A program made the position numbers and the translations under genes. A stretch of DNA of 40,123 nucleotides from Gemmatimonadota bacterium. Lineage in GTDB: Bacteria; Gemmatimonadota; Gemmatimonadetes; Gemmatimonadales; GWC2-71-9. Shown piece by piece: positions 296 to 33,527 of the stretch; within the stretch, counting starts at the first letter, position 1; every line of letters begins with the position of its first letter. Location of the stretch: contig QHUT01000071.1 in the NCBI GenBank assembly GCA_003222055.1, positions 1 through 40,123 of the forward strand. Direction: 5' to 3'. Under the pieces are notes generated by a model. The model was not told where the DNA came from, ran no database searches, and was given only the letters and a program-made list of their open reading frames with translations.

Positions 296-2254
296 ATGTC
301 GAAACGTGCCACACTCGCCGGATGCCTGGCGCTCGCGCTCTCCCTGGCCGCGTGCTATCAGGACGACACCACGCCGAACTCCCCACCGGTCCTGCGGCCG
401 CGGATTACGGTGCGGCTCACCGACGCTCCGTTCCCGTATGACTCGCTCCACAGCGTCAACATCTACGTGGTGCGGATCGAGGCCAACACGGCGCAGGACA
501 CGAGCGTGGACGGCCAGTGGGTGCTTATTACGCAGCCCCGGAAGAGCTTTGACCTGCTCGCCTTGCAGCAGGGGACCACGGCCCTCCTGGGCGAGGGCGA
601 AATGCCCGCCGGCCAGTATCACGCCGTCCGGATGACGATCGACACGACCCAGTCCTTGATCACGTGGAACGATTCGGCCCAAACCCCGGCGCAGGTGAAC
701 TGGCACGGGTGGTCGACGATCTACGCGTTCGTGGAGTATCCCGTGAGCGTCGCGACTCAGGGCGCCGACGTCGTGCTCGATTTCGACGTCGGCCGGAGTC
801 TCCGGTACAAGTACTACGGAAAAAACGAGTTCGATTTCACGCCGAACCTGCGAGCCATCGATGCGGCGGCGGCCGGCGCGATCGCTGGGACCGTGACGCA
901 GAGTTCCCAGGGGACGACCAGTCCGGTCCCGAACGCCCAGGTCTCCGTATACACTCCGTATCCCGGGCAGCCGGACAGCATGAGTGACAACCTCGAGGCG
1001 ACGGGCCGCAGCGATCAGGCGGGGCATTACAAGCTGGGGTTTCTTCCCCCGGGCCGCTACTTCGTGAGAATCGAAGAGCCCTTCATGCCTTCCCTCGAGG
1101 CGGTCGTCACCCCGAACGTCCAGGTGTCGGCAGGGCAAACCACACCCTTGTCGGTGTCCCTCCCCCAGGCCGGCGGTGGCCACGCTTACATCCACATCAG
1201 CGGGCCGACCCAGGTCGGGGTGGGCGGGATCATCTCCCTGTACGCGGCCGTCGGGGATGCGAGCGGTCATCCCGTCTACCCTGCGATCACATGGACGAGC
1301 AGTGACCCGGTGGTCGCGAGTGTCAGTGCTCCGAACGATACAGGCGCGGCGATGGTCACGGGGCGTCAGGCGGGGGTCGCAACGATCCACGCTTCTACGA
1401 CCGGTGGGCTGACGGACTCGCTCATCGTCCACGTGGTGGTGTTGGGATCGGCCGCCACGGTGAGCATCGTGCCGGCGAGCGCCACAGTGGCGGTGGGGGA
1501 TAGTGGGGTGTTCCTCGAGGCAGTGGTCCGCGACTCGGCCGGGCACGTGCTCGACGCCGGGGCGTCCTGGTCCAGCTCCGACACGACTGTGGTCTTCGTG
1601 TACCCGTGCGGATCATGCAGCGGCGATCGAGCGCTCGGCCGCGCTTCCGGGATGGCTACCGTGTTCGCGACCAGTCAGGGCAAGACGGGCCAGGCCACGA
1701 TCACCGTCGCCCCGTCAGCTCCGGTCGCCACGGTCACCGTCGTCCCTGGCAGCGCCACTCTCACCGGCGGGGACAACGCTACCTTCACGGCGCAGCTCCG
1801 CGACGCGGCCGGGAACAGCCTGAGTAACCGGTCCGTGTCGTGGTCCAGCACGGACAACTCGGTGGTGACGATCACGAGCGCCAACGGCCCCTCGGCCACT
1901 ATCCTCGCCCAAGCGGCGGGACTCGCCTCGCTGCGCGCGACCAGTGAGGGAAAGATCGGCGAGGCGAGCATCAGCGTCGCCGCCCCGGCTCCCGTGGCTA
2001 CGGTTACCGTCGTGCCCGACACGGCAACCCTCGCGGTAGGAGACAGCGCAAGATTCTTCCGCGCAGACCTGCGCGACGCCGCGGGCAATTTGCTGCGGAA
2101 CCGGACCGTCTCCTGGTCCACCAGCGACCCCTCGGTCATCAGTGTCAGCAGCTCCGGTGCACAGGCGCTCGTCCAGCCTCGGGCTGTCGGTAGTGCCTTC
2201 TTGCGCGCCACGAGCGAAGGCAAGACAGGCCAGGCGACGATCACGGTGCACTGA
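296..2254 (+). CDS. Lipoprotein with DUF4382-like domain, carboxypeptidase-regulatory-like domain and four BIG2-type Ig repeats
   Basis: A 652-residue exported lipoprotein. The signal peptide (MSKRATLAGCLALALSLAAC) ends in the lipobox LAAC with the lipidated Cys at 20. Residues about 35-185 resemble DUF4382: a beta-rich region containing LTDAPFP and an LLALQQGTTALLG-like segment. About 195-290 is a carboxypeptidase-regulatory-like beta sandwich (GAIAGTV ... LPPGRYFVRI). Then come four tandem repeats of about 90 residues starting near 296, 385, 475 and 565, each with the BIG2 pattern xVxVxPxxAxLxVGDxxxFxAxxxDAxG ... WSSxDxxVVxV ... GxAxxxATSEGKTGxAxIxV. The last two repeats are closest to each other. 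The ATG at 296 is preceded by AGGAG at the right distance; reading open further upstream lacks a signal peptide. Likely role: a surface structural or adhesive protein, possibly under the divergent ECF sigma factor. The partner is unknown. Confidence 0.85.
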   Translation: MSKRATLAGCLALALSLAACYQDDTTPNSPPVLRPRITVRLTDAPFPYDSLHSVNIYVVRIEANTAQDTSVDGQWVLITQPRKSFDLLALQQGTTALLGEGEMPAGQYHAVRMTIDTTQSLITWNDSAQTPAQVNWHGWSTIYAFVEYPVSVATQGADVVLDFDVGRSLRYKYYGKNEFDFTPNLRAIDAAAAGAIAGTVTQSSQGTTSPVPNAQVSVYTPYPGQPDSMSDNLEATGRSDQAGHYKLGFLPPGRYFVRIEEPFMPSLEAVVTPNVQVSAGQTTPLSVSLPQAGGGHAYIHISGPTQVGVGGIISLYAAVGDASGHPVYPAITWTSSDPVVASVSAPNDTGAAMVTGRQAGVATIHASTTGGLTDSLIVHVVVLGSAATVSIVPASATVAVGDSGVFLEAVVRDSAGHVLDAGASWSSSDTTVVFVYPCGSCSGDRALGRASGMATVFATSQGKTGQATITVAPSAPVATVTVVPGSATLTGGDNATFTAQLRDAAGNSLSNRSVSWSSTDNSVVTITSANGPSATILAQAAGLASLRATSEGKIGEASISVAAPAPVATVTVVPDTATLAVGDSARFFRADLRDAAGNLLRNRTVSWSTSDPSVISVSSSGAQALVQPRAVGSAFLRATSEGKTGQATITVH

Positions 2255-2257
2255 CGC

Positions 2258-2280
2258 GGGGGGCTCGCCGCGCGCCCCCC
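2258..2280 (+). terminator. Possible GC-rich terminator hairpin after the BIG2 lipoprotein gene
   Basis: GGGGGGC (2258-2264) pairs with GCCCCCC (2274-2280) around a 9-nt loop, starting 3 nt after the stop codon. There is no T-tract, so termination may be inefficient, or the hairpin may only stabilise the transcript. Confidence 0.4.
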
Positions 2281-2325
2281 CGGCCGGTAGTTTGCGGGTT
2301 CCCCGTGCCCTTGTCGGGAGGACTC

Positions 2326-3813
2326 GTGCGCTGCACTCCCCTGTTGGCCCTGGTCGTCGCCGCCGCCGCCTGCGCCCGGCCGCCGCAGGCCATCGCTCCG
2401 CCCCAGCCCGGCATGTTCGGCCCGTCCAGTCAGCCGGTGCTCTTGCCCCCGCGATTCGGTGAGCCCGGCCTCCCGCGCACGGATGGCGACTGGCGCGCCG
2501 TCGGCCGGGAGGCCGCGGCGCTCTTGTCGCAGTACGTCGCGATCAACACCACCAACCCTCCGGGCAACGAGCTCAAGACGGCCGAGTGGCTCAAGGCGGT
2601 GCTCGCGCGCGAGGGAATCGGCGCGCAAATCTTCGAGCCTAAGCCCGGAAAGGCGAACCTGTACGCGCGCCTCGCCGGAGACGGCAGCGCCCGGCCGCTC
2701 ATCCTGTTGAACCACATGGACGTCGTGCTCGCGAGCCCGGAATACTGGAAGGTCGACCCCTTCGCCGGGGCGGTGCAGGACGGCTATCTGTGGGGCCGTG
2801 GGGCACTCGACATGAAGGGCGAGGCGATTACGCAGCTCATGACACTGCTCACCCTCAAGCGCGCCGGCGTGGCGCTCAAGCGGGACGTCATCTTCCTCGC
2901 GACGGCGGACGAGGAAGTGGGCGCCGGCGTGGGGGCGGGTTGGATGGTCGAGCATCATCCGGAGCTGGTGCAGGGCGCCGAGTTCCTCCTCAACGAAGGG
3001 GGCACGATCCGCGCCGGCCCGACCGGGCGGATCGAGTACTACGGCGTGGGGACCACCGAGAAGTCGCCCTTCTGGCTCGAGGTCACCGCCCATGGCACGG
3101 CGGGACACGGCTCGCGCCCCACCGCCGACAACCCCGTGCACCGGCTGGTGCGGGCGCTGTACCGGATCGCCGGTTATCAGACGCCGCTCGTGGTGACGCC
3201 GGCGGTGGAACGTTACCTGCGCGATCTCTCGGCCATCGAACCCGACCCGGTGCGGCGGGCCTGGCTCGCGGACGTGCGCGCGGCGCTCAAGGATTCAGCG
3301 GCCGTCCGCGCGCTCACCGGAGACCTCACCTATAACGCGCTGCTCCGCAACACGATTTCGATCACGGGACTCACAGGCAGCGACAAGACCAACGTGATCC
3401 CGCCGGTGGCCCGGGCCGGGCTCGACGTGCGGCTGTTGCCGGGGCAGGACCCGGACGCGTTCCTGGCCGAGCTCGTGCGCGTGGTCGGGGACACGGCCGT
3501 CGCGATCACGCCGCTCGGCCCCAGCTGGCCGGCGACCGAGAGTCCGACCGACACGGAGCTGTTTCGCTCCATCGTGGCCGCGGCGCGCGAGCGAACGCCG
3601 AACGCCCTGGTTACCACGCCGCCGCTCACCGGGTTCACCGACAGCCATTACTTCCGGCAGCTCGGCATCGTGAGCTATGGGCTGTCGCCGTTTCCGCTCA
3701 ACCAGACCGAGTCCCGCGGCGTCCACGGGAACGACGAGCGGGTGAGTCTCGACGACATCGCATTCGGCGTGCACTTCGTGTACGACATCGTCTCGCGCGT
3801 CGTCGCGAAGTGA
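2326..3813 (+). CDS. M20 family metallopeptidase, lipoprotein form
   Basis: A 495-residue zinc carboxypeptidase or amidohydrolase of the M20/ArgE/PM20D group, expected to trim peptides or N-acyl amino acids outside the cytoplasmic membrane. The metal site is complete: HMD (His130, Asp132), the bridging Asp162 in GALDMKG, and Asp195-Glu196-Glu197 in ADEEVG. LNEGG, GTAGHGSRP, GFTDSHYF and GVHGNDERV are all recognisable M20 segments. A dimerisation domain separates the two catalytic halves. The start is taken at the GTG at 2326: GGGAGG lies 4 nt upstream, a TAGTTT -10-like element lies at 2288-2293, and the product then opens with a clean signal peptide ending in AAAAC (lipid Cys near 16). A GTG at 2305 is the alternative. 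The stop overlaps the next gene's start by 4 nt, so the two are translationally coupled. Confidence 0.9.
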   Translation: MRCTPLLALVVAAAACARPPQAIAPPQPGMFGPSSQPVLLPPRFGEPGLPRTDGDWRAVGREAAALLSQYVAINTTNPPGNELKTAEWLKAVLAREGIGAQIFEPKPGKANLYARLAGDGSARPLILLNHMDVVLASPEYWKVDPFAGAVQDGYLWGRGALDMKGEAITQLMTLLTLKRAGVALKRDVIFLATADEEVGAGVGAGWMVEHHPELVQGAEFLLNEGGTIRAGPTGRIEYYGVGTTEKSPFWLEVTAHGTAGHGSRPTADNPVHRLVRALYRIAGYQTPLVVTPAVERYLRDLSAIEPDPVRRAWLADVRAALKDSAAVRALTGDLTYNALLRNTISITGLTGSDKTNVIPPVARAGLDVRLLPGQDPDAFLAELVRVVGDTAVAITPLGPSWPATESPTDTELFRSIVAAARERTPNALVTTPPLTGFTDSHYFRQLGIVSYGLSPFPLNQTESRGVHGNDERVSLDDIAFGVHFVYDIVSRVVAK

Positions 3814-4688
3814 TCGGGTTCTTCCTGCATCCGCGCCGCCACCCGCCGGCGCGGGAGCGGCGTCCGCCGGTGTTCGAGCGACTCACCAAGGCCCGGGTGG
3901 GCTGGGTGGTGGAGCGCCTCGCCGCCCCGTTTTCGCGTTGGGAGAGTGCGCGGCTCGAGAGTCCCGAGATCGCCCTCCCGGTGCGCGACCTGGACCCGCG
4001 GCTCGTGGGCTACCGCATCGCCCTCGTGACGGATCTGCATCACGGGCCCGCCGTCCCCGAGCGCTGGTTCGCGAGCGTGGCGGATCGCGTGGCCGACTTG
4101 GCACCCGATCTCGTCGCCCTGGGGGGGGACTTCGTGAGCCACGCCCGCCGCGATCTCGACGGCCTGGACGCCATCATCGCGCGGTTCCACGCCCGCGACG
4201 GCAGCGTGGCCGTGCTCGGCAATCACGACCACTGGGTCGATCCCGACCTGGTGAGCCGGATCGTCGAGCGCGCCGGCGCGCGCCTGCTCACGAACCGGCA
4301 CGAGCTGATCCGCCGCGGGGCAGCGGCGCTCGCCGTCGCCGGCGTCGACGACTTCAGCCATGGTGCAGTTCGGCCGGACGACGCCCTCGCCGGCGTTCCA
4401 CCCCACGTGCCACGGGTGCTGCTATCGCACAATCCCGATCTCATCGAGTATCTCCCCGCCGGGCTGCGCGTGGACGTGATGCTCTCGGGGCACACGCACA
4501 ACGGCCAGGCACACCTGCCATTGGTCGGACCGATCATTGCGCCGTCGCAGTTCGGCCGGAAATACCTGCACGGACTGAAGCGCGCCGGGGAAACGTGGCT
4601 CTACGTGTCGGCGGGGGTCGGAAGCGCGGCGCTTCCCCGGTGGCGCAATCCGCCGGAGCTGCCCGTGCTCCGGCTGACGGCCGCGTAA
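3810..4688 (+). CDS. Metallophosphoesterase (YkuE/YaeI-like)
   Basis: A 292-residue calcineurin-type phosphoesterase. All signature motifs are present in order: TDLHHGP (Asp75, His77), GGDFV (Asp107), GNHDHW (Asn138, His139), LLSHNPD, and GHTHNGQ (His228, His230). They give a dinuclear metal site. The N-terminal segment before the core (about residues 1-65, with FERLTKARVGWVVERLAAPF) could be an amphipathic membrane-associating helix, and the family includes membrane-associated lipid or nucleotide phosphodiesterases. The GTG start overlaps the preceding peptidase stop (GTGA). The gene ends 4 nt before a convergent gene. The substrate cannot be told from sequence. Confidence 0.88.
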   Translation: MIGFFLHPRRHPPARERRPPVFERLTKARVGWVVERLAAPFSRWESARLESPEIALPVRDLDPRLVGYRIALVTDLHHGPAVPERWFASVADRVADLAPDLVALGGDFVSHARRDLDGLDAIIARFHARDGSVAVLGNHDHWVDPDLVSRIVERAGARLLTNRHELIRRGAAALAVAGVDDFSHGAVRPDDALAGVPPHVPRVLLSHNPDLIEYLPAGLRVDVMLSGHTHNGQAHLPLVGPIIAPSQFGRKYLHGLKRAGETWLYVSAGVGSAALPRWRNPPELPVLRLTAA

Positions 4689-4692
4689 CGCG

Positions 4693-4977
4693 CTACTTGA
4701 GGGAGACGACGAACCTGACGATCACGGTCTCCGCCGTCTGCGGCGCCACCGTACAGAAGCATTCTGCGCCGATCAAACGCTTGACGCCCAATACCTCCGC
4801 CTCTGCGATCCCCGGCACGTCGCGGTACGCGATCTCGAGCATGGTGCCGTCGATGATGCGGTAGGCCACGGGGCGCCCGTACAGACGATGGTGTGGATCG
4901 ATCTTCGCGAGGCCGTTGCTCAGCCGCTGCCGGATCGCGCTGGCCTGCTCGGACAGCGCGACGGGGAGATCGGTCAC
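4693..4977 (-). CDS. Unrecognised small protein, last gene of the queG operon
   Basis: A 94-residue protein I do not recognise. The sequence opens with a helical stretch (TDLPVALSEQASAIRQRLSNG) and then looks like an alpha-beta domain with two Cys residues close together (ECFC). There is no signal peptide or membrane segment. The start is the GTG at 4977, whose GTGA overlaps the queG stop by 4 nt; a longer reading frame upstream merely overlaps queG in another frame. The tight coupling argues for real expression with queG. Role unknown. Confidence 0.65.
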   Translation of the reverse strand: MTDLPVALSEQASAIRQRLSNGLAKIDPHHRLYGRPVAYRIIDGTMLEIAYRDVPGIAEAEVLGVKRLIGAECFCTVAPQTAETVIVRFVVSLK

Positions 4978-5966
4978 GGGGCCGCCCGAGCGCGGTTCGC
5001 CGACACGGCGGCGGCATTGCGCCGCAGGCCGGCGGCACCCGGGCGCTCGAACGGCGTGTCGCCGAAGCGACGCGCGAACTCGTCGGGCGTCACGGCGAGC
5101 AGCTCCGCCAGCTCCGGCGCGGCCACCTCGGGACGCACCGCGAGCTCGGGGTCGGATGTCGTCTCCGCGAACGTGATGTTCCAGGGGCACACATCCTGAC
5201 ACACGTCGCACCCGAAGAGCCAGTCACCCACCAGCGGACGCTCGTCGTCGCGGAACGGTGCGGCATGCTCGATCGTGAGATAGGAGATGCAGCGCCGCGC
5301 GTCGAGCGTTCGAGACTCGACGAAGGCATCGGTAGGACAGGCCTCGAGGCAGCGGCGGCACGTGCCACAGCGGTCGGCCTGGAAGGGGAGGTCGGCAACC
5401 AGCTCCGCATCCGTGAAGATCACGCCGATGAACGTGAACGAGCCGATAGTCGGATTGATCAGCATCGTGTTCTTCCCGATCCAGCCCAGCCCGGCGCGCT
5501 GCGCCAGCTCGCGCTCCGGGACCGGACCCGCGTCCACGTAGCAGCGCGTCCTCGCGCCGGGCACGATGTCCCGCACGGCGGTGGCCAGCAGCTCGAGGCG
5601 GCGGCCGATGACCGCGTGGTAGTCGGTAGACCAGGCGTACTGGGCTACTCTCCCGGAGGCTGTACTGACGCCGGGCGCAAGCCCGGGGTGAGCCGAGCCA
5701 TGGAAGTAATTGGTCAGCGTCACCACCGCCACCTGTGCGTCTGGCATGATGCGGGCAGGGTGTTTGCGTTTCTCCGCCTGGCGATGCAGGTAGGCCATCG
5801 TGCCCGCGTAACCGGCGGCGAGCCACTGATCGAGCTCGTCCGCGTGCGCGTTCGGTTCGAGACTCGCCACGCCGACCGCGTCGAACCCCAGCTCGAGCGC
5901 TCGACGCTTCACCGCGACGGTGTCGCGTGACGTCTTTGCGTGACGGTTTTGCGTGACGTCGCTCAT
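4974..5966 (-). CDS. queG: Epoxyqueuosine reductase
   Basis: A cobalamin-dependent iron-sulfur enzyme that reduces epoxyqueuosine to queuosine in tRNA anticodons. The 330-residue product carries two [4Fe-4S] binding sets: Cys200, Cys203, Cys206 and Cys210 (CGTCRRCLEACPTDA), then Cys226 (RRCISYLTIE) and Cys253, Cys256 and Cys260 (CDVCQDVCPWN). The proposed proton donor Asp145 sits in YVDAGPVPERELAQRAGLGW. The protein is shorter than forms carrying a C-terminal HEAT-like repeat and seems to lack that extension. I chose the ATG at 5966 because it overlaps the upstream stop as ATGA; an ATG at 5990 would add eight residues. It is the middle gene of a three-gene overlapping operon. No other queuosine gene is in the window. 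Confidence 0.95.
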   Translation of the reverse strand: MSDVTQNRHAKTSRDTVAVKRRALELGFDAVGVASLEPNAHADELDQWLAAGYAGTMAYLHRQAEKRKHPARIMPDAQVAVVTLTNYFHGSAHPGLAPGVSTASGRVAQYAWSTDYHAVIGRRLELLATAVRDIVPGARTRCYVDAGPVPERELAQRAGLGWIGKNTMLINPTIGSFTFIGVIFTDAELVADLPFQADRCGTCRRCLEACPTDAFVESRTLDARRCISYLTIEHAAPFRDDERPLVGDWLFGCDVCQDVCPWNITFAETTSDPELAVRPEVAAPELAELLAVTPDEFARRFGDTPFERPGAAGLRRNAAAVSANRARAAP

Positions 5967-7469: not shown

Positions 7470-8178
7470 GGACGAACGACTCCTCTCCCAGGTTCCCCGC
7501 GAGCGCCGCGCCTTCACGAAGACGGACTCGTGGCGCGTACTCCGGATCATGGGCGAATTCGTCGAGGGGTTCGACACGCTCTCGGACGTCTACAGCGCCG
7601 TCACGGTGTTCGGGTCGGCGCGCACCCAGACTGACGATCCCTACTACGAGAAGGCCGTCGAGACCGCGCGGCTGCTCGCCCAGGAGGGCTTCCCGGTCAT
7701 CACGGGCGGCGGACCCGGGATCATGGAAGCGGCCAACCGCGGCTGCCAGGAGGGGAACGGCCTGTCGATCGGGTGCAACATCGAGCTGCCGTTCGAGCAG
7801 GGGCTCAACCCCTACGTCGAGCGAGCCATCAACTTCCGCTACTTCTTCGTCCGCAAGACGATGTTCGTGAAGTACTCCACGGGGTTCATCGTCTTCCCCG
7901 GCGGGTACGGCACCATGGACGAGCTGTTCGAGGCGCTGACGCTGATCCAGACCGGGAAGGTGAAGCACTTCCCCGTGATCCTGTTCGGGGAGGCGTACTG
8001 GCAGGGGCTCGCGGAGTGGTTGCGGGACCGCGTCGCCGGCGAGGGCAAGATCACCACGACCGACCTGCAGCTCTTCACCATCACCGACAGCCCGCGGGAG
8101 GCGGTGGCGATCGTGCGGCAGGCGCGCGAGCGCCGCACGCAGTCGCTCCCGACGGCGGCAGCCGACGGCGACGTCTAG
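7426..8178 (+). CDS. LOG-family Rossmann-fold protein (TIGR00730 type)
   Basis: A 250-residue member of the LOG (Lonely Guy) phosphoribohydrolase family. The two defining motifs are present: GGGPGIMEA (94-102) and PGGYGTMDE (158-166), with the conserved Arg143-Lys144 between them. Characterised members release a base from nucleoside 5'-monophosphates, including cytokinin ribotides; other bacterial members act on AMP-like substrates. The first 55 residues form an extra N-terminal helical segment ([20 protein letters not shown]), as in longer bacterial subgroups. The ATG at 7426 lies inside the upstream gene. The next gene starts 16 nt after the stop. Whether it makes a cytokinin-like molecule here is unknown. 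Confidence 0.88.
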
Positions 8179-8194
8179 CGATTGGGGACGCACG

Positions 8195-9331
8195 ATGACT
8201 CGCAAGGACTTTCTGCGCGGCCAGCGCATCGACCCGAAGCCGATCAGCGGCCGGGAGACGATCCCGGAGCTGGTGGACAACGCGTTCCTCGCCTACAACG
8301 CGGGCCGCCTGGCGGAGGGGTGCCGGCTGTTCGCCGGGCGGATGCTCGAGGACGACGTCACCGTCGGGATGAGCCTGACGGGGGCGATGACGCCCGCCGG
8401 GCTCGGGATGTCCACGATCATCCCGCTCGTCGAGGCGGGGTTCCTCGACTGGATCGTTTCCACCGGGGCGAACCTCTACCACGACGCGCATTTCGGGCTG
8501 GGGCTGGCGATGCATCGTGGGACGCCGTTCGCAGACGACGTGGAGCTGCGCGAAGAGGGGGTGGTGCGCATCTACGACATCTTCTTCGACTATGAAGTCC
8601 TGCTCTCCACCGACGCCTTCATCCGAGAGGTGTCGGCGGCGCCCGAGTTCCAGCGGCCCATGAGCACGGCCGAGTACCACTATCTCCTGGGCGGATACAT
8701 CCTGGAGCGGGAGAAGGCGCTGGGCCTGTCCCGAAAATCCCTGCTCGGGGTGGCCCATCAGTGCGGCGTGCCGGTCTACACGTCGTCGCCCGGCGATTCA
8801 TCGATCGGCATGAACGTCGCCGAGCAGGCGCTCACGGGCTCCCAGCTGCGCTTCGATCCGAGCGCCGACGTGAACGAAACGTCCGCGATCGTGTTCGACG
8901 CCAAGACGCACGGCGGCAAGAGCGGCGTCCTCATCATCGGGGGCGGCAGCCCCAAGAATTTCGTGCTGCAGACGGAGCCGCAGATCCAGGAGGTCCTGGG
9001 CATCAGCGAGAAGGGCCACGATTACTACCTGCAGATCACCGATGCCCGCCCCGACACCGGCGGCCTGTCGGGGGCGACACCCGCCGAGGCGGTGAGCTGG
9101 GGCAAGGTCGACCCCGACCAGCTCCCGGGCACCGTGGTTTGTTACGTGGATAACACGGTCGGCTTCCCGATTGTCGCCGCGTACGCCCTCGCCAAGCGCA
9201 AGAAGCGGCGGCTCAGACGCCTGTACGATCGGCGCGACCAGCTGATGCGCCAGCTCACCGAGGCATACCGCGAGGCGAAGGGGGACCGCGACGCCCGCGC
9301 GGAGGCGACGACTGTCGACCGCAGACCCTGA
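8195..9331 (+). CDS. Deoxyhypusine-synthase-like protein (probable homospermidine-type synthase)
   Basis: A 378-residue NAD-dependent enzyme of the deoxyhypusine synthase fold. The catalytic lysine is conserved as Lys304 in EAVSWGKV, preceded by the glycine-rich LSGATPAEA. Bacteria have no eIF5A, so the classical reaction is unlikely. The KHH segment that contributes His288 in the human enzyme is replaced here by GGGSPKNF (249-256), the form I associate with bacterial and cyanobacterial proteins annotated as homospermidine biosynthesis. The inferred role is aminobutyl transfer between polyamines. It follows the LOG-family gene by 16 nt, and its last 20 nt overlap the start of the MFS transporter gene, so product export is a possibility. 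Family call firm; substrate is inference. Confidence 0.9.
9301..9305 (+). promoter_or_regulatory. Shine-Dalgarno that fixes a CTG start for the MFS gene
   Basis: GGAGG is spaced 6 nt before CTG at 9312. The reading frame has a stop at 9243 and no ATG, GTG or TTG until inside the first membrane helix, so this site decides the start. Confidence 0.7.
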
Positions 9332-10826
9332 GCTCGCGGCTCCCGCGGCCACGTCCCGGGCGTACGCGGCGTATGCCCTGGGGCTGCTCACGCTCATCAA
9401 CCTCCTCAACTACACCGACCGCAACGTCGTCTTCGCCCTGTTCGAGCCGATCAAGCGGGAGCTCGCCGTCTCCGACCAGCAGCTGGGGTGGCTGGGATCC
9501 GCGTACGTCGTCGTGCTGTCGCTGTTCGCCTTGCCGCTCGGCGTGGTGGGAGACCTGAAGTCGCGACGCGCGGTAATCGCATTCGGCGTGGGTCTCTGGA
9601 GCGCCTGTACCGCCCTGGGTGCCGCCGTGGGCCGCTTCTGGCAGCTGCTCTTGTGCCGGGCGCTGGTGGGCGTGGGGGAGGCGGGCTACGGACCCGCGGC
9701 GCAGGCCCTGATCGCCGAGTTCTTCCGCGGCCGCCGCCGCGCCTTCGCCATCGGCATCTACTCCGTCGGCATGGCGTTCGGCGGCGTGCTCGGCATCTGG
9801 CTGGGCGGGCTGCTCGCCGAGCGCCACGGGTGGCGAGCGGCCTTCGTCGCACTCGGCGTCCCGGGATTCGTGCTGGCGCTGCTCGCGTCGCGGCTGCGGG
9901 AGCCGCGGCGTCGTCCACCCGCGACGATCCGCGCCACCGTGGAAGGGTGGTACGCCCGCGGTCGCGCCCGGGCGCGACAGGCCCTGCGTCTCGGAAAGCC
10001 GTTGATCTGGTTCACGCTCGTGGGAGCGGCGCTCTCCGGCGGGCTCGACGTTTTCCAGGGGCTTCCGCCCGGGCTCGACACGGCGGTGTTCGCCGCGTGC
10101 GTGAGCATCGGCGTGGTGTGGACGGTGGTGCGACTCGTCCCGGTCGCCGTACGCGGCACCAGCGAGGCGACCGGGGTCGCGGCCACGGTGTTCGGCGATT
10201 TCCTCCAGGCTTCGGGCACCGTGCTGCGAACGCCGACGCTGATCTGGATGTTCGTCGGCGGTGCGCTGGTCACGTTTGCCGTGAACGGGCTCATCGCGTG
10301 GGCCCCGAGCTTTCTCGAGCGCACGCACGGGCTGTCGGTCGCGACCATCGGGCGGCAGTTCGGTGTGTGGGGGCTCGCGGGCGGCGCGCTGGGCGCGTTG
10401 TTCGGCGGCCGAACGGGAGACTGGCTGCTGGCGCGTTGGAGCGGAGGTCGGGTCGTCGTGTCGGGCGCCGGATTCGTGCTGGGGGGTCCGGTGTGTGCCG
10501 CCCTGCTCCTGATCGATGAGCTGCGGCTGTTCGTACCGCTCCTGTTCGGGACGTTCTTCCTCTACTCGTGGTACAACGGGCCGCTCTCGGCCGTCATTCT
10601 CGATGTGGTGCCCGCCGCCGTCCGGGCGTCGGTGCTGGGCGCCTTCGTACTGTTCTCGCATCTGGCCGGGGACGCGATCGCCCCGCCCCTGATCGGCTAC
10701 CTCTCCGACCGGTTCGGCCTGCGGGCGGCGATGCTGCTGCTGCCGACGGCGGGTGCCGTGGGAGGATTGGTGATCTTGATCGCGCTGACGACCGTGGGGC
10801 GGGACATGCAGCGGGTGAAAGCATGA
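9312..10826 (+). CDS. MFS transporter, Spinster-like, with apparent CTG start
   Basis: A 504-residue major facilitator protein. The first helix contains [20 protein letters not shown], followed by LSDxQLG-like spacing and the motif-A region [25 protein letters not shown] is the Spinster/lysophospholipid-type signature. Two additional hydrophobic segments lie in the long central region (about 220-290), so the count may be 14 helices rather than 12. Cytoplasmic-membrane export or uptake of an amphipathic or cationic small molecule is plausible but unproven. The start is CTG: starting at the first GTG (9513) would delete helix 1 and motif A. The gene overlaps the deoxyhypusine-synthase-like gene by 20 nt and is followed by a heptad-repeat palindrome. 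Confidence 0.88.
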
Positions 10827-10927
10827 TTGCGGATTTCGGAATGCGGAATGCGGAGTGTCGGTACGATCGTCGTGGCGCGATTGACCTCCCATTGCAATTC
10901 CGCAATCCGCATTCCGCATTCCGCAAT
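10826..10927. repeat. Heptad-repeat inverted pair (ATGCGGA units)
   Basis: The left arm (10826-10856) and right arm (10891-10927) are each built from about four copies of a 7-nt unit close to ATGCGGA, in opposite orientation, separated by roughly 34 nt. The arms pair imperfectly into a long hairpin. The element fills the gap between the MFS stop and the ATP-grasp start. Similar ATTCCGCATTCCGC strings occur scattered through many soil-bacterial assemblies in my recollection, which suggests a dispersed REP-like element. It could act as a transcription attenuator or mRNA stabiliser between the two genes. Confidence 0.7.
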
Positions 10928-10947
10928 GGGTCGGGAGGGGCGGGGCT

Positions 10948-11952
10948 GTGAAAGTTGCCGTCGTGTTCGACACGCTGCACCCCGACTGGGAGGACACCGA
11001 CTACAAGAAGGAAGTCGAAGCGAAGGTCGAGGAGGCGGAGTACGACGTGGCCCGGGCCCTGATGGCCCTGGCGCACGAGGTGCTCATGGTCGGCGTGGCC
11101 GAGCAGCTGGCGCCGGTGCTCGAGCGGCTCGCCGCCTTCGAGCCGAAGCTCGTCTTCAACGGCTGCGAATCGTTTCGCGGACGGGCGCGGCACGAGTACG
11201 CCCTGGCGACCGTGCTCGAGATGCACGGCTATCGCTACACCGGCTCGTCGCCGACCGGGTTGCTTGTGGCTCGCAACAAGTCGCTCACCAAGAAAATCCT
11301 GGCTCACCATGGCATCCGCGTGCCGGCGTTCGCCGAGTTCCGGCCCGGGGAGAAGCCGGTGCGCCCGTCGGAGCTGCGCTTCCCGCTGATCGTGAAGCCG
11401 CTGCTCGAAGATGCGTCCGTGGGGATCTCGCAGGCGTCTGTCGTGGAGGACGACGCGGATCTCACCGCCCGGGTGAAGTTCATCCACGAGAAGTTTCACC
11501 AGGCCGCCATCGTCGAGGAGCTCATCGAGGGACGGGAGCTGTACGTCGGTCTGGTGGGGAACCAGACGCTTCAGGTGCTCCCCGTCGTCGAGCTCACCTT
11601 CGGGGAATCAGATGGTGAGCACCGCATCGCCACCTACAAGGCCAAGTGGGACGAGGAATACCGCAAGCGCAAGAAGATCAAGAATGTCTTCGCCAAGGGG
11701 CTGTCGGACGAGGTGGGCGCGAAGATCGGGGACATCTGCACCACGGCGTTTCACGCGCTGTGGCTGCAGGACTACGGCCGGGTGGACCTGCGGCTGACCC
11801 ACGACGACGAGTTGTACGTGCTCGAGGTGAATCCCAACCCGTTTCTCGCCGCCGAAAACGAGATGGCCGACGCGGCGGAGAAGGCCGGCATGGGCTACAC
11901 CGACTTCATCCAGCGAATCGTGGACGAGGCGATGGCGCGTGACTCCGCGTAG
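10948..11952 (+). CDS. ATP-grasp ligase related to D-alanine-D-alanine ligase
   Basis: A 334-residue carboxylate-amine ligase fold. The N-terminal third is a Ddl-like substrate domain (MKVAVVFDTL, LVFNGCESFRGRARHEYA). The ATP-grasp core has Lys150 in PLIVKPLLEDASVGI, the hinge EELIEGREL, Asp280 in GRVDLRL, and Glu293 and Asn295 in LEVNPNPFL. The usual Ddl ending (EINTLPGFT-like) is replaced by EVNPNPFLAAENEMADAAEKAG, so the second substrate may not be D-alanine. Such Ddl paralogues can make dipeptides or modify peptides. The GTG start has GGGAGGGG upstream. The 3' end overlaps the zinc-ribbon peptidase gene by 14 nt, implying a joint function. There is no mur or ddl context in the window. Confidence 0.87.
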   Translation: MKVAVVFDTLHPDWEDTDYKKEVEAKVEEAEYDVARALMALAHEVLMVGVAEQLAPVLERLAAFEPKLVFNGCESFRGRARHEYALATVLEMHGYRYTGSSPTGLLVARNKSLTKKILAHHGIRVPAFAEFRPGEKPVRPSELRFPLIVKPLLEDASVGISQASVVEDDADLTARVKFIHEKFHQAAIVEELIEGRELYVGLVGNQTLQVLPVVELTFGESDGEHRIATYKAKWDEEYRKRKKIKNVFAKGLSDEVGAKIGDICTTAFHALWLQDYGRVDLRLTHDDELYVLEVNPNPFLAAENEMADAAEKAGMGYTDFIQRIVDEAMARDSA

Positions 11953-12937
11953 GCGCGAAGTGCCGACGCCCGAGCTGCGCTGCCCCACCTGCGCGGCGGA
12001 GATCGCGCGCTTCTGGGCGCACTGCTCGAACTGCGGGCGCCGGCTCGAATGGCGCGACACCACGAAGCAGACGGGCGCGGAGTGCTACTACTGCGGCTGG
12101 GTCGTGTCCGACAGCTTCTCGTATTGCCCCTGGTGCGGGCGCGAGATCGCCGACACGGACTCGAGCCCCGAGCCCCTCAAGGCGCCCAAGGGATTCCTGT
12201 ATCACCGCCGCTGCCGCTGGGGCTGCGGCGGCGGAGTGATGTACCCGATGCGGTTCTGCCCCTGGTGCGGTCGCCCGCAGCGGTGGCACTATCGAGAATT
12301 CCAGAACGTCTGCCCACACTGCAACAAGGGGGTGAACGACTGGATGGAGGTCTGCCCCTGGTGCGGGGAGGACGCCACCGGACGCGACCTGGTCCGCCAG
12401 GCCCTGCGCCGGGTCCGCCAGCTGCTCGTCGTGGGGCGCCTCAAGGACTGGAACTACCGCGTGCTGCTGCGGCCCGGTGTCTCCGGGGTGACGCACCGCA
12501 CCCCCAAGATCATCGAGATCGAGCGCCGCTACGTCACCGGCAAGCGGCGTCGCGACGAGATCTCGTGGAACATGCTCACCGGACTGATTCTGCACGAGCT
12601 CGGACACTCGTTCCTGTATCACAATTGGGCGTTCACCCGGACCGGACGCTTCCGTCGCGCCTTCGGCGAGGTGCGCAAGGCGTACCGGGTGGCCGACTCC
12701 AAGTGGGTGGACTTCGAGCGGCGCGGTGTGACGACCACGCTCCCCAATTACGTGACCGCCTATGCGGCGACGCACCCCCAGGAGGATTTTGCAGAAACGT
12801 TCCGGTTCTACGTCGCGCGGCGGGGCCGCCTGCGCGAACTGTTCGCGGAGTTCGGCCGGAAGCGCAAGGGTGTGCCGGTGTTCGAGAAGTTCCTGGTGCT
12901 GCACGACTTGATCCGCAGCCTCAGGGGATGGCGCTGA
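11939..12937 (+). CDS. Four-zinc-ribbon protein with a putative HExxH metallopeptidase domain
   Basis: A 332-residue protein with eight CxxC-type knuckles forming four zinc ribbons: Cys15/18/29/32, Cys49/52/63/66, Cys92/96/107/110 and Cys125/128/139/142. The C-terminal half carries HELGH (219-223) inside GLILHELGHSF. A downstream YVTAYAATHPQEDFAETF may supply the third metal ligand (Glu282, Asp283 or Glu286). This tail resembles the putative zinc peptidase family Peptidase_Mx (AYAxxHPxEDxAE), although I recall only one N-terminal ribbon in that family. There is no signal peptide, so it is probably cytoplasmic. The GTG start lies inside the ATP-grasp gene. A ligase/peptidase pair suggests processing of a peptide, a protein tag or a small amide. 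Substrate unknown. Confidence 0.8.
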   Translation: MTPRRREVPTPELRCPTCAAEIARFWAHCSNCGRRLEWRDTTKQTGAECYYCGWVVSDSFSYCPWCGREIADTDSSPEPLKAPKGFLYHRRCRWGCGGGVMYPMRFCPWCGRPQRWHYREFQNVCPHCNKGVNDWMEVCPWCGEDATGRDLVRQALRRVRQLLVVGRLKDWNYRVLLRPGVSGVTHRTPKIIEIERRYVTGKRRRDEISWNMLTGLILHELGHSFLYHNWAFTRTGRFRRAFGEVRKAYRVADSKWVDFERRGVTTTLPNYVTAYAATHPQEDFAETFRFYVARRGRLRELFAEFGRKRKGVPVFEKFLVLHDLIRSLRGWR

Positions 12938-13796: not shown

Positions 13797-14489
13797 TCAC
13801 CCCGCGAAGCAGTAGGCGCAGCCCTTTTCCTGCGAGCGGTTGACGGCGATGACCCCGGACGGCACCACCTGCACGCCCGGGAGCAGGTTCGCGACCCACT
13901 CCTTCTTGATCGCCTCGGCCTGCATCCCCATCTGGCTCGCGAACTTCGAGCTGTAGATCGTCAGCGCGATGTTGCACACGCCGATCAGGACACCCTTGGC
14001 GAGCAACTCGTCTGCGCCCATGCCCGGAATCGGCGCGTCGCCCGGTTTGAGCCGGAGCAGTGGATGGCGGACGGCGGGCCCCTTCGTGGCGGGATCGGCG
14101 ATCTTGAACCCCTCCCCGAGCTTGTACTTCGCCCACATCGCGCTCTCCATCGCGTAGGGGATGCCGGAGTGGCGCAGCACGATCACCACCGAGTTGTCTC
14201 CGTCCGTCGTGCCGTAGGTCTCGTTGGTCGTGTTGAGGAAGACGCGCGCCCACGCGAACGCGAATCCGTCGTTCGGCTCGGGGACGTCGTAGATCATCTT
14301 GTGCTTCCCCGTGATCTTGTTGAGCCACGCCTCGAACTCGGGGTTGGCGGAGACGTCGCGCGCGGACCGCGGTCGTGGGGCGGCGTCCAGCGGGGCGACC
14401 CAGCCGCCCAAGCCGAGCGCGGCGGCGCCCGCGGCGATCCGCCCCAAGAATCCGCGGCGGTGCGTGGTGAGGTTGGCGATCTCCGGCAT
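13797..14489 (-). CDS. Tat-exported protein, possible DsrE-like fold, with C-terminal CxxC
   Basis: A 230-residue protein with a twin-arginine signal (HRRGFLGR, then the hydrophobic stretch IAAGAAALGLGGWVA and cleavage near DAAP). The mature part shows the features of a DsrE/DsrF-type alpha-beta fold: VVIVLRHSGIPYA, DELLAKGVLIGVCNIALTIYSS and LLPGVQVVPSGVIAVNRSQE. It ends in GCAYCFAG, a CxxC that may be redox-active. I am fairly sure of export, less so of the fold, and do not know the reaction. It is transcribed directly after a TsdA-like cytochrome (10-nt gap), suggesting a periplasmic sulfur-handling pair. TATCGGAGG-type purines (AGGAGGG) lie just before the ATG. Confidence 0.7.
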   Translation of the reverse strand: MPEIANLTTHRRGFLGRIAAGAAALGLGGWVAPLDAAPRPRSARDVSANPEFEAWLNKITGKHKMIYDVPEPNDGFAFAWARVFLNTTNETYGTTDGDNSVVIVLRHSGIPYAMESAMWAKYKLGEGFKIADPATKGPAVRHPLLRLKPGDAPIPGMGADELLAKGVLIGVCNIALTIYSSKFASQMGMQAEAIKKEWVANLLPGVQVVPSGVIAVNRSQEKGCAYCFAG

Positions 14490-14499
14490 ACAGACCCTC

Positions 14500-15348
14500 C
14501 TATCGGGTGGTGGAACGGTGATGTCGAGCGGCGTCCGTGGGATAGGCGACGTCCGGGGGCGCGTCGCCGTTCGGCCAATCGTGGACCTTGTCGGGAAAAT
14601 CGGGGCGGGTGTGCACGTTCACGTAGGCGGCCACGTCGAGCGCCTGCTGGTCGGTCAGCGTGCCCGGCTGGTCGAACGGCATGTTGTCGCTGATGAAGGC
14701 CGCGGCGGTGCGAACGCGCGCCATCCCCGCACCGATGTTGTACGAGTGCGCCCCCCACACCGGCGGCGCCACCGCCGTGCCCTCGCCCCCCTCGCCGTGG
14801 CACTTGACGCAGCCGGTTGCGTACACGCGGGCGCCGGCCGCCGTGTCGGCGGTGAGGGCCGCCCATTTCGCCAGCCGGTTGGACATGGGCGCCGGGGCGA
14901 CCGGCACCTCGCGGGACAGGAACCACAGGTATGCGACGATGTCCCGCATGTCCGGGCCGTCGGTCGCGAGCGGCAGGCCGTTCATGCTGCGACGGAAGCA
15001 GTCGTTGATGCGGTATTGGAGCGTCTCGACGGTGGCGCTGCGTGCCCGGTACTGCGGGTAGCGTGCGAACACGCCGACCCAGGAACCGCTCGAGCGGCGG
15101 CCCCCGTCCAGGTGACAACTCACGCACCGCAGCTTGTTGCCGACGTGCGCCGGAAGGCTCTCGGCGGTGGCGAGGAGCAGCGCGCGGCCGCGACGGACGG
15201 CCGTGCCGAGCGGACCGTCGGGAATGAGGGAGTCGGCAGGACCCTGCAAGGCGGCCGGGCGCGCGTCGCCGCTGGGTGGCCCGACACGGCGGCCGCACGC
15301 CATCGCGAGCGCGGCGGCGACCAGGCCCACACCGGGAGGGACGCGCAT
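14500..15348 (-). CDS. Dihaem cytochrome c, TsdA (thiosulfate dehydrogenase)-like lipoprotein
   Basis: A 282-residue exported cytochrome. The signal peptide ends in LAMAC with lipid Cys18. Two haem-binding motifs are visible: C75-VSC-H79 and C180-VKC-H184. Between them is NDCFRRSMNG, with Cys117 at the place where TsdA enzymes use cysteine as the axial ligand of the active-site haem. Met223 in DNMPF is a likely ligand of the second haem. TsdA interconverts thiosulfate and tetrathionate in the periplasm. I chose the ATG at 15348 because it gives a clean signal peptide; an upstream frame would run into the end of glpD. No strong Shine-Dalgarno is visible. It lies 16 nt after glpD and 10 nt before the Tat protein. 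Confidence 0.82.
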   Translation of the reverse strand: MRVPPGVGLVAAALAMACGRRVGPPSGDARPAALQGPADSLIPDGPLGTAVRRGRALLLATAESLPAHVGNKLRCVSCHLDGGRRSSGSWVGVFARYPQYRARSATVETLQYRINDCFRRSMNGLPLATDGPDMRDIVAYLWFLSREVPVAPAPMSNRLAKWAALTADTAAGARVYATGCVKCHGEGGEGTAVAPPVWGAHSYNIGAGMARVRTAAAFISDNMPFDQPGTLTDQQALDVAAYVNVHTRPDFPDKVHDWPNGDAPPDVAYPTDAARHHRSTTR

Positions 15349-15364
15349 CAAGGGGGAGATACTA

Positions 15365-17077
15365 TCACGGATTGGTGAGACCCGCCACTTCTTCCGCGAA
15401 CGCACGCGATCGCTCGACCTGCGCCCGGTACTCGGCCACCTCGGCGGCCCGCCGCGTCGTGTCCCAGCCGAGCGCCTCCGCCATCCGGTCCGCCACGGCG
15501 CCCGCGGCCGAGACCGCCTGGTCGCGCGTCGCGTAGAAGAGATGCAGCCGCCGGATGAGCACGTCGGAGAGCCGGAGTGCCATCTCCCGCTCCACCGCGT
15601 GCGTCACCTCCGCCCAGACCTCCGGTCGCCCGGCCACGATCGGCTGCCCGAGGGCGCGGTCCCGCTCCACGAGGTTGAGCACCGCCGCGGCCTCGCTCCC
15701 GTAGGCTCCCACCAGGTAGCGCGCCGTCGACTCGCGAGCGCTCCGCACCGTCGCCGCCTTCACGAGGCCCTCCAGGTCCGCCGTCTCGCCTCCGGGGAGC
15801 GGCAGCCGGTCGGTCGGGGGTCGGGCGGCGCGCGGACGACCGTCCAGCGCGCGCAGCCGGGCGGCGACACGGTCGACCACATCGCGCGCCATGAGGCGGT
15901 AGGTGGTGAGCTTGCCGCCCGCGATCGTGAGCAACCCGCCCGGGCCCTCGACCACGCGGTGCTCCCGTGAGGCGTCCGACGGCGCGACGTCGCGCCCCCC
16001 CGCTCCTCCCCCCGTTCCCCCCGCCCCCGTTGCGCGCAGCAGCGGGCGCAGGCCCGCCCAAGTCGCCACGACATCTCGGGGCGAGAGGCGTGCCGTGGGG
16101 AAGAACCAGTTGGCGGAGCGCAGCAGGTAGATCACGTCCTCGCCCGTGGCGCGCACGTCTTCGGGCGGGGTGTCGTCGTCGGTGTCGGTCGTGCCGATGT
16201 AGCTGAGATCGCCCCACGGCAGCACGAACATCACGCGCCCGTCGAGCGGCGAGGTGAGGGTCATCGCGCGGACGTGGCCCAAGCGGTGGCGCGGCACGGC
16301 GACGTGCGCGCCCTTGGTCAGACGCAGCACCGGCTCCGCCTCCGGATCCTCCAACCGGCGCAGCTCGTCCGCCCACGGTCCCGTCGCGTTTACCACGACG
16401 AGCGCGCGTACGCTGTACTCGTGTCCGCTCAGCACGTCGCGCACGGCGGCGCCGCGAATCCGTCCGTCCGGCTTGAGCAACGCGGTGACGTCCGCGTGGC
16501 TCGCCACCAGAGCGCCCGCGTGCGCAGCGGCACGCATCGTGGCGAGCGTGAGCCGTGCGTCGTCCGTCTGCGCGTCGAAGTAGAGCGCCGCGCCCTTCAA
16601 GTCCTTGTCGCGCAGCCCGGGCTCGAGCCGGAGCGTCGCCTTGCGTCCCAGCCAGCGATGCAGCCCCACGTTGCGGAAGCCGGCGAGCAGGTCGTACAGC
16701 CACAGGCCGGCGCGCAGCCGCCACGCCGGCACGCGCGCGCCCCGGTACGATGGCAACACGAACGGCAGCGGGCGAACGAGATGCGGCGCCACGGTGAGCA
16801 GGACCCGGCGCTCGTGCGATGCCTCGCGTACCAGGTGGAACTCGTATTGCTCGAGATATCGGAGTCCGCCGTGGATCAAGCGGGACGAATGCGACGACGT
16901 ACCGCTCGCGAAGTCGCCCTTGTCCACCACCGCCGTGCGAAAGCCGCGCAGCGCCGCGTCGCGCGCGATCCCGGCGCCGGTAATCCCTCCGCCGACGACG
17001 AGCACGTCCACCGGCTCGGCCGCCATCGCCGCGAGGGCCTTGGCGCGCGTGCGGTGTGAAAATTCCGTTTCGTTCGT
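15365..17077 (-). CDS. glpD: Glycerol-3-phosphate dehydrogenase (FAD-dependent, aerobic)
   Basis: A membrane-associated flavoenzyme that oxidises sn-glycerol 3-phosphate to dihydroxyacetone phosphate and feeds electrons to quinone. The N-terminal FAD motif VDVLVVGGGITGAG is followed by DFASGTSSHSSRLIHGGLRYLEQ, and TIAGGKLTTYRLMARD lies before the C-terminal helical domain. A Gly-rich insertion (TGAGGTGGGAGG), encoded by a G-run tract, sits between WAGLRPLL and SREH. The start is unclear. The first ATG (17026) would give 553 residues but lose FSHRTRAKAL, which matches the conserved FSxRTR helix of homologues. That helix is in frame from an ACG at 17077, 7 nt after GGAGG (17085-17089). It is divergent from the thiolase gene. 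Confidence 0.9.
   Translation of the reverse strand, partial: TNETEFSHRTRAKALAAMAAEPVDVLVVGGGITGAGIARDAALRGFRTAVVDKGDFASGTSSHSSRLIHGGLRYLEQYEFHLVREASHERRVLLTVAPHLVRPLPFVLPSYRGARVPAWRLRAGLWLYDLLAGFRNVGLHRWLGRKATLRLEPGLRDKDLKGAALYFDAQTDDARLTLATMRAAAHAGALVASHADVTALLKPDGRIRGAAVRDVLSGHEYSVRALVVVNATGPWADELRRLEDPEAEPVLRLTKGAHVAVPRHRLGHVRAMTLTSPLDGRVMFVLPWGDLSYIGTTDTDDDTPPEDVRATGEDVIYLLRSANWFFPTARLSPRDVVATWAGLRPLLRATGAGGTGGGAGGRDVAPSDASREHRVVEGPGGLLTIAGGKLTTYRLMARDVVDRVAARLRALDGRPRAARPPTDRLPLPGGETADLEGLVKAATVRSARESTARYLVGAYGSEAAAVLNLVERDRALGQPIVAGRPEVWAEVTHAVEREMALRLSDVLIRRLHLFYATRDQAVSAAGAVADRMAEALGWDTTRRAAEVAEYRAQVERSRAFAEEVAGLTNP
15995..16028 (-). other. G-quadruplex-type tract in the glpD coding strand
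   Basis: On the minus (mRNA-sense) strand four runs of 5-7 G are separated by loops of 1, 3 and 6 nt: complements of 16024-16028, 16017-16022, 16008-16013 and 15995-16001. This satisfies the canonical G3+N1-7 rule. It encodes a glycine-rich loop of the enzyme. Confidence 0.65.
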
Positions 17078-33400: not shown

Positions 33401-33527
33401 CGCGCAGCTGCGAGACCTGCGCTGCGAGGATGCTGCGACGCAGTTCCTCGTGTTGGTAGAGTTCGGCATCGAAGTCGCCGACGCGCCCGAGCGCCTGCGG
33501 CGCTGCCGGCGGGGAGGGACGAGCTAG
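30450..33527 (+). CDS. Fused multispanning membrane/spermidine-synthase-like protein with helical-repeat tail
   Basis: A 1025-residue three-part protein. Residues about 1-450 contain many hydrophobic helices ([37 protein letters not shown]), split by a Pro/Gly-rich linker near residues 205-225. About 500-760 is a spermidine-synthase-type Rossmann domain with the AdoMet-type loop [11 protein letters not shown] (Gly556-Gly560), VVEIEPAV and [21 protein letters not shown]. The C-terminal about 250 residues are Ala-rich helices resembling TPR units. Fused proteins of this sort are common in GC-rich bacteria but uncharacterised; a true aminopropyltransferase function is not assured. It is coupled to the E1 gene by an 11-nt overlap. 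Its stop shares the palindrome CTAG with the convergent kinase stop. Confidence 0.88.
31066..31122. other. C-rich then G-rich linker-coding tract
   Basis: Five C-runs of 3-8 nt (31066-31099) are followed within 6 nt by several short G-runs (31105-31122). The first part encodes [11 protein letters not shown] and the second VGGGG, a flexible linker between membrane blocks. The C-runs make a quadruplex-type pattern on the minus strand, and the two halves could pair as a hairpin in the mRNA. Confidence 0.5.

Follow-up and report, generated by a model that had tools for sequence, protein, structure and literature searches.

What do a ligase and a peptidase do side by side in a bacterial genome, when one would make an amide bond and the other could cut it? 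The question is raised by two overlapping genes in a stretch of 40,123 nucleotides, hereafter the window, which comprises positions 1 to 40,123 of contig QHUT01000071.1 (G000:C96) in the 3.69 Mb, 173-contig genome of a Gemmatimonadota bacterium. The upstream gene encodes an ATP-grasp ligase (positions 10948-11952, GTG start, 334 residues) that has the Ddl fold and is assigned here to a non-Ddl branch, as its type I, while the downstream gene encodes a zinc-ribbon metallopeptidase of family PF15887 (11939-12937, GTG start, 332 residues). Both lie on the forward strand, as do all motifs described below, and their frames share 14 nt (11939-11952), exactly as reported in an initial annotation made from the sequence alone. 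We propose, with a probability of about 0.4, that the two enzymes form a self-contained cytosolic module of two genes that makes and cuts an amide bond, perhaps in the reversible tagging of proteins.

A conserved gene pair

In a set of 61 genomes, made up of the source genome and 60 relatives, 23 contain the type I peptidase (the copy of G005 being in two pieces) and 22 the type I ligase; the 23 with the peptidase all belong to family f1. The ligase adjoins the peptidase, in the same order, in 21 of the 23 peptidase loci (the window and L031-L052), the exceptions being G032 and G015. Measured between aligned protein stretches, the junction in 21 loci ranges from an 11-nt overlap to a 30-nt gap. 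A scan of named genomes with two short motifs, which is biased to type I and partly revisits the genomes of the relatives set, yields 77 loci from the best 80 of 104 matches. Sixty-one of these (L088-L147 and L151) are counted as type I, including the cut or split genes of L102, L105, L106, L133 and L144, after removal of three contig-edge fragments (L148-L150) and of the weak loci L152-L164. The ligase lies directly upstream and on the same strand in 55 of the 61, that is, in all except L114, L119, L121, L123, L129 and L135; the genome of L114 is apparently G032, which is 67% complete. Three of the six unpaired genomes (G406, G408 and G409) encode a type I ligase elsewhere. The initial annotation had made its proposal depend on conservation of the pair, and this neighbourhood survey finds the pair conserved. 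According to the record labels, 55 of the 61 type I loci belong to organisms named Gemmatimonad-, three to Myxococcales or Kofleriaceae (L124, L140 and L147), and the others to Bacterium HR33 (L115), an uncultured bacterium (L139) and Candidatus Kutchimonas (L141).

Within type I, the distances between ligases and those between peptidases are correlated (r = 0.96, 20 loci), as they would likewise be through shared descent alone. In G033 (L053, positions 8001-8114), the flanking genes of a cluster labelled PurD-like/Nei-like from its protein starts are kept, the pair is missing and a remnant of ~38 residues of the peptidase end persists; the two genes can therefore be lost together. As judged from these sequences, the two enzymes are a conserved and co-inherited pair with intact motifs.

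The ligase: a Ddl fold without the Ddl signature

Pfam analysis of the ligase reports a Dala_Dala_lig_C domain (7.2e-29), and all 50 Foldseek matches listed for its AlphaFold model (pLDDT 87.7) are Ddl or D-Ala-D-Lac ligases (E 3.4e-26 to a Ddl). However, the protein reaches only 118.8 bits against TIGR01205 (cut-off 245.65) and 128.6 bits against NF002378 (cut-off 243), whereas a separate true Ddl of the same genome (G000:C171) passes both models (281.4 and 306.3 bits, respectively). The substrate signature of Ddl enzymes consists of the GGxSxE motif, an active-site Tyr after a conserved Lys, the PGM motif and a Ser-Leu loop that touches the second D-Ala; the title of structure 1iow, listed by Foldseek, names Y216F, which we take to be this active-site Tyr. 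In an alignment with the Ddl of its own genome, the window ligase retains the conserved ATP-grasp residues that handle ATP and metal (Lys, Arg, Asp, Glu and Asn positions), E293 and N295 being shared by all 22 type I ligases aligned, but GGxSxE is missing. The Tyr position is occupied by Trp in all 22 type I ligases, the PGM position by NPF or NPY, as read, like the missing GGxSxE, off the alignment itself, and the Ser-Leu by Asn or His followed by Glu or Asp (22/22). The residue facing the acceptor side, a Leu in Ddl, is thus acidic in 22 of 22 type I ligases, as it is in 26 of 26 ligases of the second type described below; this hints, as a guess from the sequences, at a cationic acceptor amine.

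The ligase scores short of the curated Ddl thresholds, it does not carry the substrate signature of Ddl enzymes, and a true Ddl is encoded elsewhere in the genome. We conclude from these sequence features that the ligase is not a Ddl, despite its fold, which bears out its initial description as Ddl-like. Annotation of the ligases of this branch as D-Ala-D-Ala ligases should therefore be avoided. The segment EVNPNPFL (11824-11847, residues 293-300), which carries the metal-ligand Glu and Asn plus the altered acceptor-side loop, aligns with LEANTLPGM of the genome's own Ddl. It had been singled out as an atypical motif of this protein, and it is indeed present, but EVNPNP recurs in the same or near form in type II ligases and, of the tandem ATP-grasps at G000:C132, in the second. 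By this sequence comparison, it is a trait of the wider non-Ddl branch and not of the window ligase alone. The two tandem non-Ddl ATP-grasp genes at G000:C132 (L079, positions 3717-5833) belong to a Ddl-like family of their own, which is matched by adjacent genes in many of the relatives.

The peptidase: PF15887 with four zinc ribbons

The peptidase is assigned to Peptidase_Mx (PF15887, 3.5e-12, 46.7 bits over a cut-off of 27) across profile positions 83-165 only, out of 236, together with DZR zinc ribbons, and it is the sole PF15887 match found in the source genome. The family name itself carries the word putative. Four ribbons (11981-12364, residues 15-142) are formed around 16 Cys at residues 15/18/29/32, 49/52/63/66, 92/96/107/110 and 125/128/139/142, and are followed by the HELGH motif (12593-12607, residues 219-223). 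All 16 Cys, as well as H219-E-L-G-H223 and E282-D-F-A-E286, are invariant in the 22 proteins of the type I peptidase alignment (A1), from which L012 (G005), with its peptidase in two pieces, is omitted. The sixteen cysteines and the HELGH site of the initial annotation are hence both confirmed, and the degeneracy of HELGH in homologues that it had named as fatal to its proposal is not observed in any of the 22.

The segment YAATHPQED (12761-12787, residues 275-283) contributes a predicted catalytic Tyr and a predicted third zinc ligand, Glu282. It is one instance of a YxxxHPxED pattern found after HExxH in every protein aligned (22 of type I, 20 of type II and three classical PF15887 members), with a constant Tyr-to-Glu spacing of 7. 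PPEP-type zincins have this spacing too, between Glu185 and Tyr178, the latter named in structure titles, and we therefore predict that H219, H223 and E282 are the zinc ligands, E220 the base and Y275 the catalytic Tyr. VIA-align analysis of the weak structure model of the peptidase reports lethal-factor-type, Certhrax and PPEP zincins, over residues 145-331 only, with the ribbons outside. PPEP chains score Z 6.8-7.5 and related zincins as high as 9.6, best values of 7-8 being common in this method without a true match, and an M34-like zincin core is thus only suggested. A sequence search of the PDB with this protein yields no entries but 2k5c (E 0.017) and 9urd (E 0.76).

A second lineage and a third association

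The closest ligases in other Gemmatimonadota share ~38-46% identity with the window ligase and lie beside a PF15887-type peptidase devoid of ribbons, an arrangement that we name type II. Its gene order is mostly peptidase first, and sometimes convergent. Of 26 type II ligase matches, 24 were fetched (L054-L077), and a PF15887-like match stands alongside at 21 of these 24 loci (none at L067, L073 and L077); a type II peptidase lies next to each of the two omitted, G048:C194 and G057:C117, as judged by coordinates. L060, one of six type II peptidases scanned, scores 25.1 against the PF15887 cut-off of 27. The peptidases of type I and type II are homologues of each other (hhalign probability 97.8). 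In the ligase tree, of which the outgroups are long branches and from which L057 and L058 are omitted, types I and II group together (94/97), with Ddl, a third paralogue and the tandem ATP-grasps all falling outside, and the type I ligases stand beside one type II lineage (99/97); alignment A3 omits L057, L058, L065, L069 and L074. Among 395 genomes of the phylum, searched with at most five candidates scored per genome, type I occurs in 54 and type II in 98; the type I figure excludes two of 56 hits, that of G033, a remnant, and that of G048, which belongs to the type II protein of this genome. Outside the phylum, the type II pair is also present in Bdellovibrionales (L152 and L163) and Planctomycetota (L153 and L155), and it is broken up in Oligoflexales (L164). 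At one type II locus (L066, positions 2189-3778), a DUF885 gene adjoins the ligase and peptidase pair, and a frame with a similar motif is found beside the type II ligase of L073.

In a Pseudomonadaceae locus (L158), the gene of a classical PF15887 protein with a Zn_ribbon_DZR_6 domain precedes those of a circularly permuted ATP-grasp (CP_ATPgrasp) and an Alpha-E protein. Two other classical loci (L154 and L162) have no CP_ATPgrasp or Alpha-E neighbours by eye, L158 being the only classical locus with its neighbours profile-scanned. The L158 system resembles that of the window in its peptidase family, zinc-ribbon domain, ATP-grasp neighbour, and HExxH and YxxxHPxED motifs, but it differs in having a permuted ligase and Alpha-E, while the window has a Ddl-type ligase, four ribbons and no Alpha-E seen. 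PF14403 and PF04168 are not among the 27 frames of the window scanned with Pfam, which were chosen by length and codon bias and leave the final 2 kb, some other frames and the rest of the genome outside this search.

With types I and II and L158, members of PF15887, an uncharacterised putative peptidase family, adjoin three kinds of ATP-grasp in several gene orders and phyla, which suggests that the job of this family is tied to a bond made by an ATP-grasp. The family and the non-Ddl ligase branch thereby merge into one question, that of which ligase-made bond the peptidase cuts.

Proposed function and its rivals

The proposed make-and-cut module builds on the frequent adjacency of the two genes (55/61), their varied flanks, the second lineage with other gene orders, and the invariant motifs. 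As expected from its family, the ATP-grasp ligase would activate a carboxylate as an acyl phosphate and couple it to an amine, yielding a peptide or isopeptide bond, and the PF15887 zinc enzyme would hydrolyse or trim a bond of that kind, both enzymes probably acting on one and the same bond. More tentatively, their target might be a cytosolic protein, since no precursor, transporter or biosynthetic partner seems to be needed and the peptidase carries likely docking domains. The ligase would then write an amino-acid or short peptide tag that the peptidase erases or trims, ligation first and removal after being the likeliest order, and the four ribbons of type I may dock the peptidase on its target. 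We favour tagging because searches revealed neither a precursor nor a constant third gene, nor any type I relative among viral contigs and plasmids. Indeed, the flanks differ by clade (a cluster with MFS and homospermidine-type genes, the PurD-like/Nei-like cluster, and others), and no constant third gene, transporter or biosynthetic gene was found to travel with the pair across clades. Likewise, among stop-to-stop frames of at least 20 residues, which a very short or distant precursor would escape, no short frame is common to the 1.2-kb flanks of 41 loci outside same-context groups, the most widely shared one being found in at most 17 loci, at the position of the upstream MFS gene. The idea that the pair matures a neighbouring precursor peptide, included in the initial annotation, is thus abandoned. 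The viral contigs (pattern-based scan) and plasmids (tblastn) were searched for type I relatives, type II being outside this search, and contain none. A broader version of the tagging proposal, in which, widely among bacteria, an ATP-grasp of Ddl descent attaches an amino acid to the tail of a cytosolic protein and a ribbon-guided PF15887 enzyme removes it, is tentative and in our view rather doubtful; if true, several phyla would hold interchangeable versions of this system, namely types I and II and the one with the circularly permuted ligase.

Types I and II may do one shared job, as suggested by the near-exclusive use of these two versions: among 138 genera, 26 have type I and 32 type II, and one has both as against 6.0 expected if they were independent (P = 0.005). 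Several observations weigh against the proposed module. This P value takes no account of phylogeny, and the two types do occur together in seven genomes, all of genus g14. No type I ligase was found in three of the six unpaired genomes (G404, G405 and G407), so that the peptidase may function on its own. The named scan gave 13 weak PF15887-type loci, of which just five (L152, L153, L155, L163 and L164) have a ligase of the branch alongside, the neighbours of the other eight having been profile-scanned at L158 only. The structure model of the peptidase is weak (pLDDT 58.3) and too poor for placing the ribbons, and with it Foldseek returns nothing below 0.001 (best E 0.07). The docking of the ribbons on a target is drawn weakly, from analogy, and the substrate, acceptor protein and activity of the module are a proposal read from sequences. 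Finally, the missing third gene would suit a small-molecule product equally.

The latter is the most serious rival, though on balance unlikely: the ligase would make a free dipeptide or amino-acid conjugate serving as storage, osmolyte or signal, and the peptidase would recycle it. Dipeptides are products of Ddl-fold ATP-grasps, a closed cycle could dispense with a constant third gene, and the conserved acidic residue replacing the acceptor-side Leu of Ddl would allow another small amine as acceptor. Yet no transporter or biosynthetic gene accompanies the pair from clade to clade, the structures weakly matched by the catalytic part of the peptidase are endopeptidases and, to our knowledge, four zinc ribbons are unusual in a dipeptidase. 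The same endopeptidase matches would suit a scheme in which the peptidase acts first, trimming a protein to expose a terminus that the ligase extends, so that both act one way. The pairing evidence fits this scheme equally, but no acceptor protein was found encoded in the flanks of the 41 loci and the sequence gives no sign of which enzyme acts first, and we deem this scheme distinctly unlikely. Still less probable is the conjugation of an amino acid to homospermidine or spermidine by the ligase, with its removal by the peptidase. A homospermidine-biosynthesis gene (8195-9331; NF001980, 547 bits over 450) does lie two genes upstream of the ligase, its cluster is present in 13 of the 24 loci compared, and a positively charged acceptor would fit the acidic residue of the acceptor loop. 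Nevertheless, the NF001980 gene, detected in 44 of the 61 relatives-set genomes, does not track the pair: it is present where no pair was found (G029 and G031) and was not found in several pair-bearing genomes (e.g., G036, G042, G046, G048, G059 and G060), and polyamine conjugation is rejected as a general role.

Two further explanations appear highly improbable. The ligase fold and its best database matches, all Ddl, would be compatible with a second D-Ala-D-Ala (or D-Ala-D-X) ligase acting with a cell-wall peptidase. The ligase, however, fails the TIGR01205 cut-off that the Ddl of its own genome passes, with GGxSxE, Tyr and PGM all changed, the peptidase has hardly any sequence ahead of its ribbons (first Cys at residue 15), and no cell-wall ligase or synthase family is found among the 27 window frames scanned, in agreement with the initial remark that peptidoglycan genes are missing nearby. 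A peptidoglycan ligase is hence rejected on curated cut-offs, signature residues and the separate true Ddl. Nor do the two genes look like chance neighbours or products of inherited synteny with unrelated roles: an adjacent ligase is missing in six of the 61 loci, three of them without one found elsewhere, but the partnership recurs across two lineages, with differing flanks and several gene orders. These differing arrangements largely refute the explanation, and chance adjacency is rejected.

Comparison with known systems

The write-and-erase logic has a eukaryotic counterpart in tubulin, the terminal residue of which is written by tubulin tyrosine ligase, an ATP-grasp, and erased by zinc metallocarboxypeptidases of the MATCAP type; the analogy would be confined to this logic. 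Glutathionylspermidine synthetase/amidase couples, in domains of its own, an ATP-grasp ligase with an amidase that cuts its product. The ligase and hydrolase families of that enzyme differ from those of the window pair, with which, moreover, the polyamine gene does not track. Among graspetides, one group has an ATP-grasp ligase with metallopeptidases in several loci (PMC8939145). Unlike in graspetides and other ribosomal peptides modified by ATP-grasps, no conserved precursor gene is seen beside the window-type pair in the flanks of the 41 loci. The system had been initially presented as undescribed. This is apparently right for the exact pair, which does not appear in the open-licence literature as far as its accessible text goes, but the class of ATP-grasp peptide-ligase systems with a peptidase partner is already known.

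Other candidates and neighbouring features

A defence system was rejected, as PADLOC analysis returns no meaningful match (best 0.0076, over a zinc-ribbon stretch), and so was a mobile element, given the absence of type I relatives from the viral contigs and plasmids searched. A neighbouring precursor-peptide system was rejected for want of a conserved short frame near the 41 loci. Gene fusion was dropped, no open reading frame matching both the ligase and the peptidase profiles being found in a scan of the type II loci, to which this check was confined.

Further along the window, positions 30450-33527 encode a 1025-residue protein with a spermine-synthase domain. Downstream of the pair (13797-15405), a gene for a 230-residue protein without Pfam match adjoins one for a cytochrome c of SoxA/TsdA type, and the clusters of these two proteins are each present in nine of the 24 loci compared. 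Just 5' of the ligase gene, a strong hairpin repeat (10826-10930) is formed by GGAATGCGGAATGCGGA at 10838-10854 and its inverse at 10906-10922. This 17-mer has 17 copies in the genome (seven forward and ten reverse), as compared with none for a control read backwards, and the hairpin folds with a z of -2.87, one of 200 shuffles being equally good.

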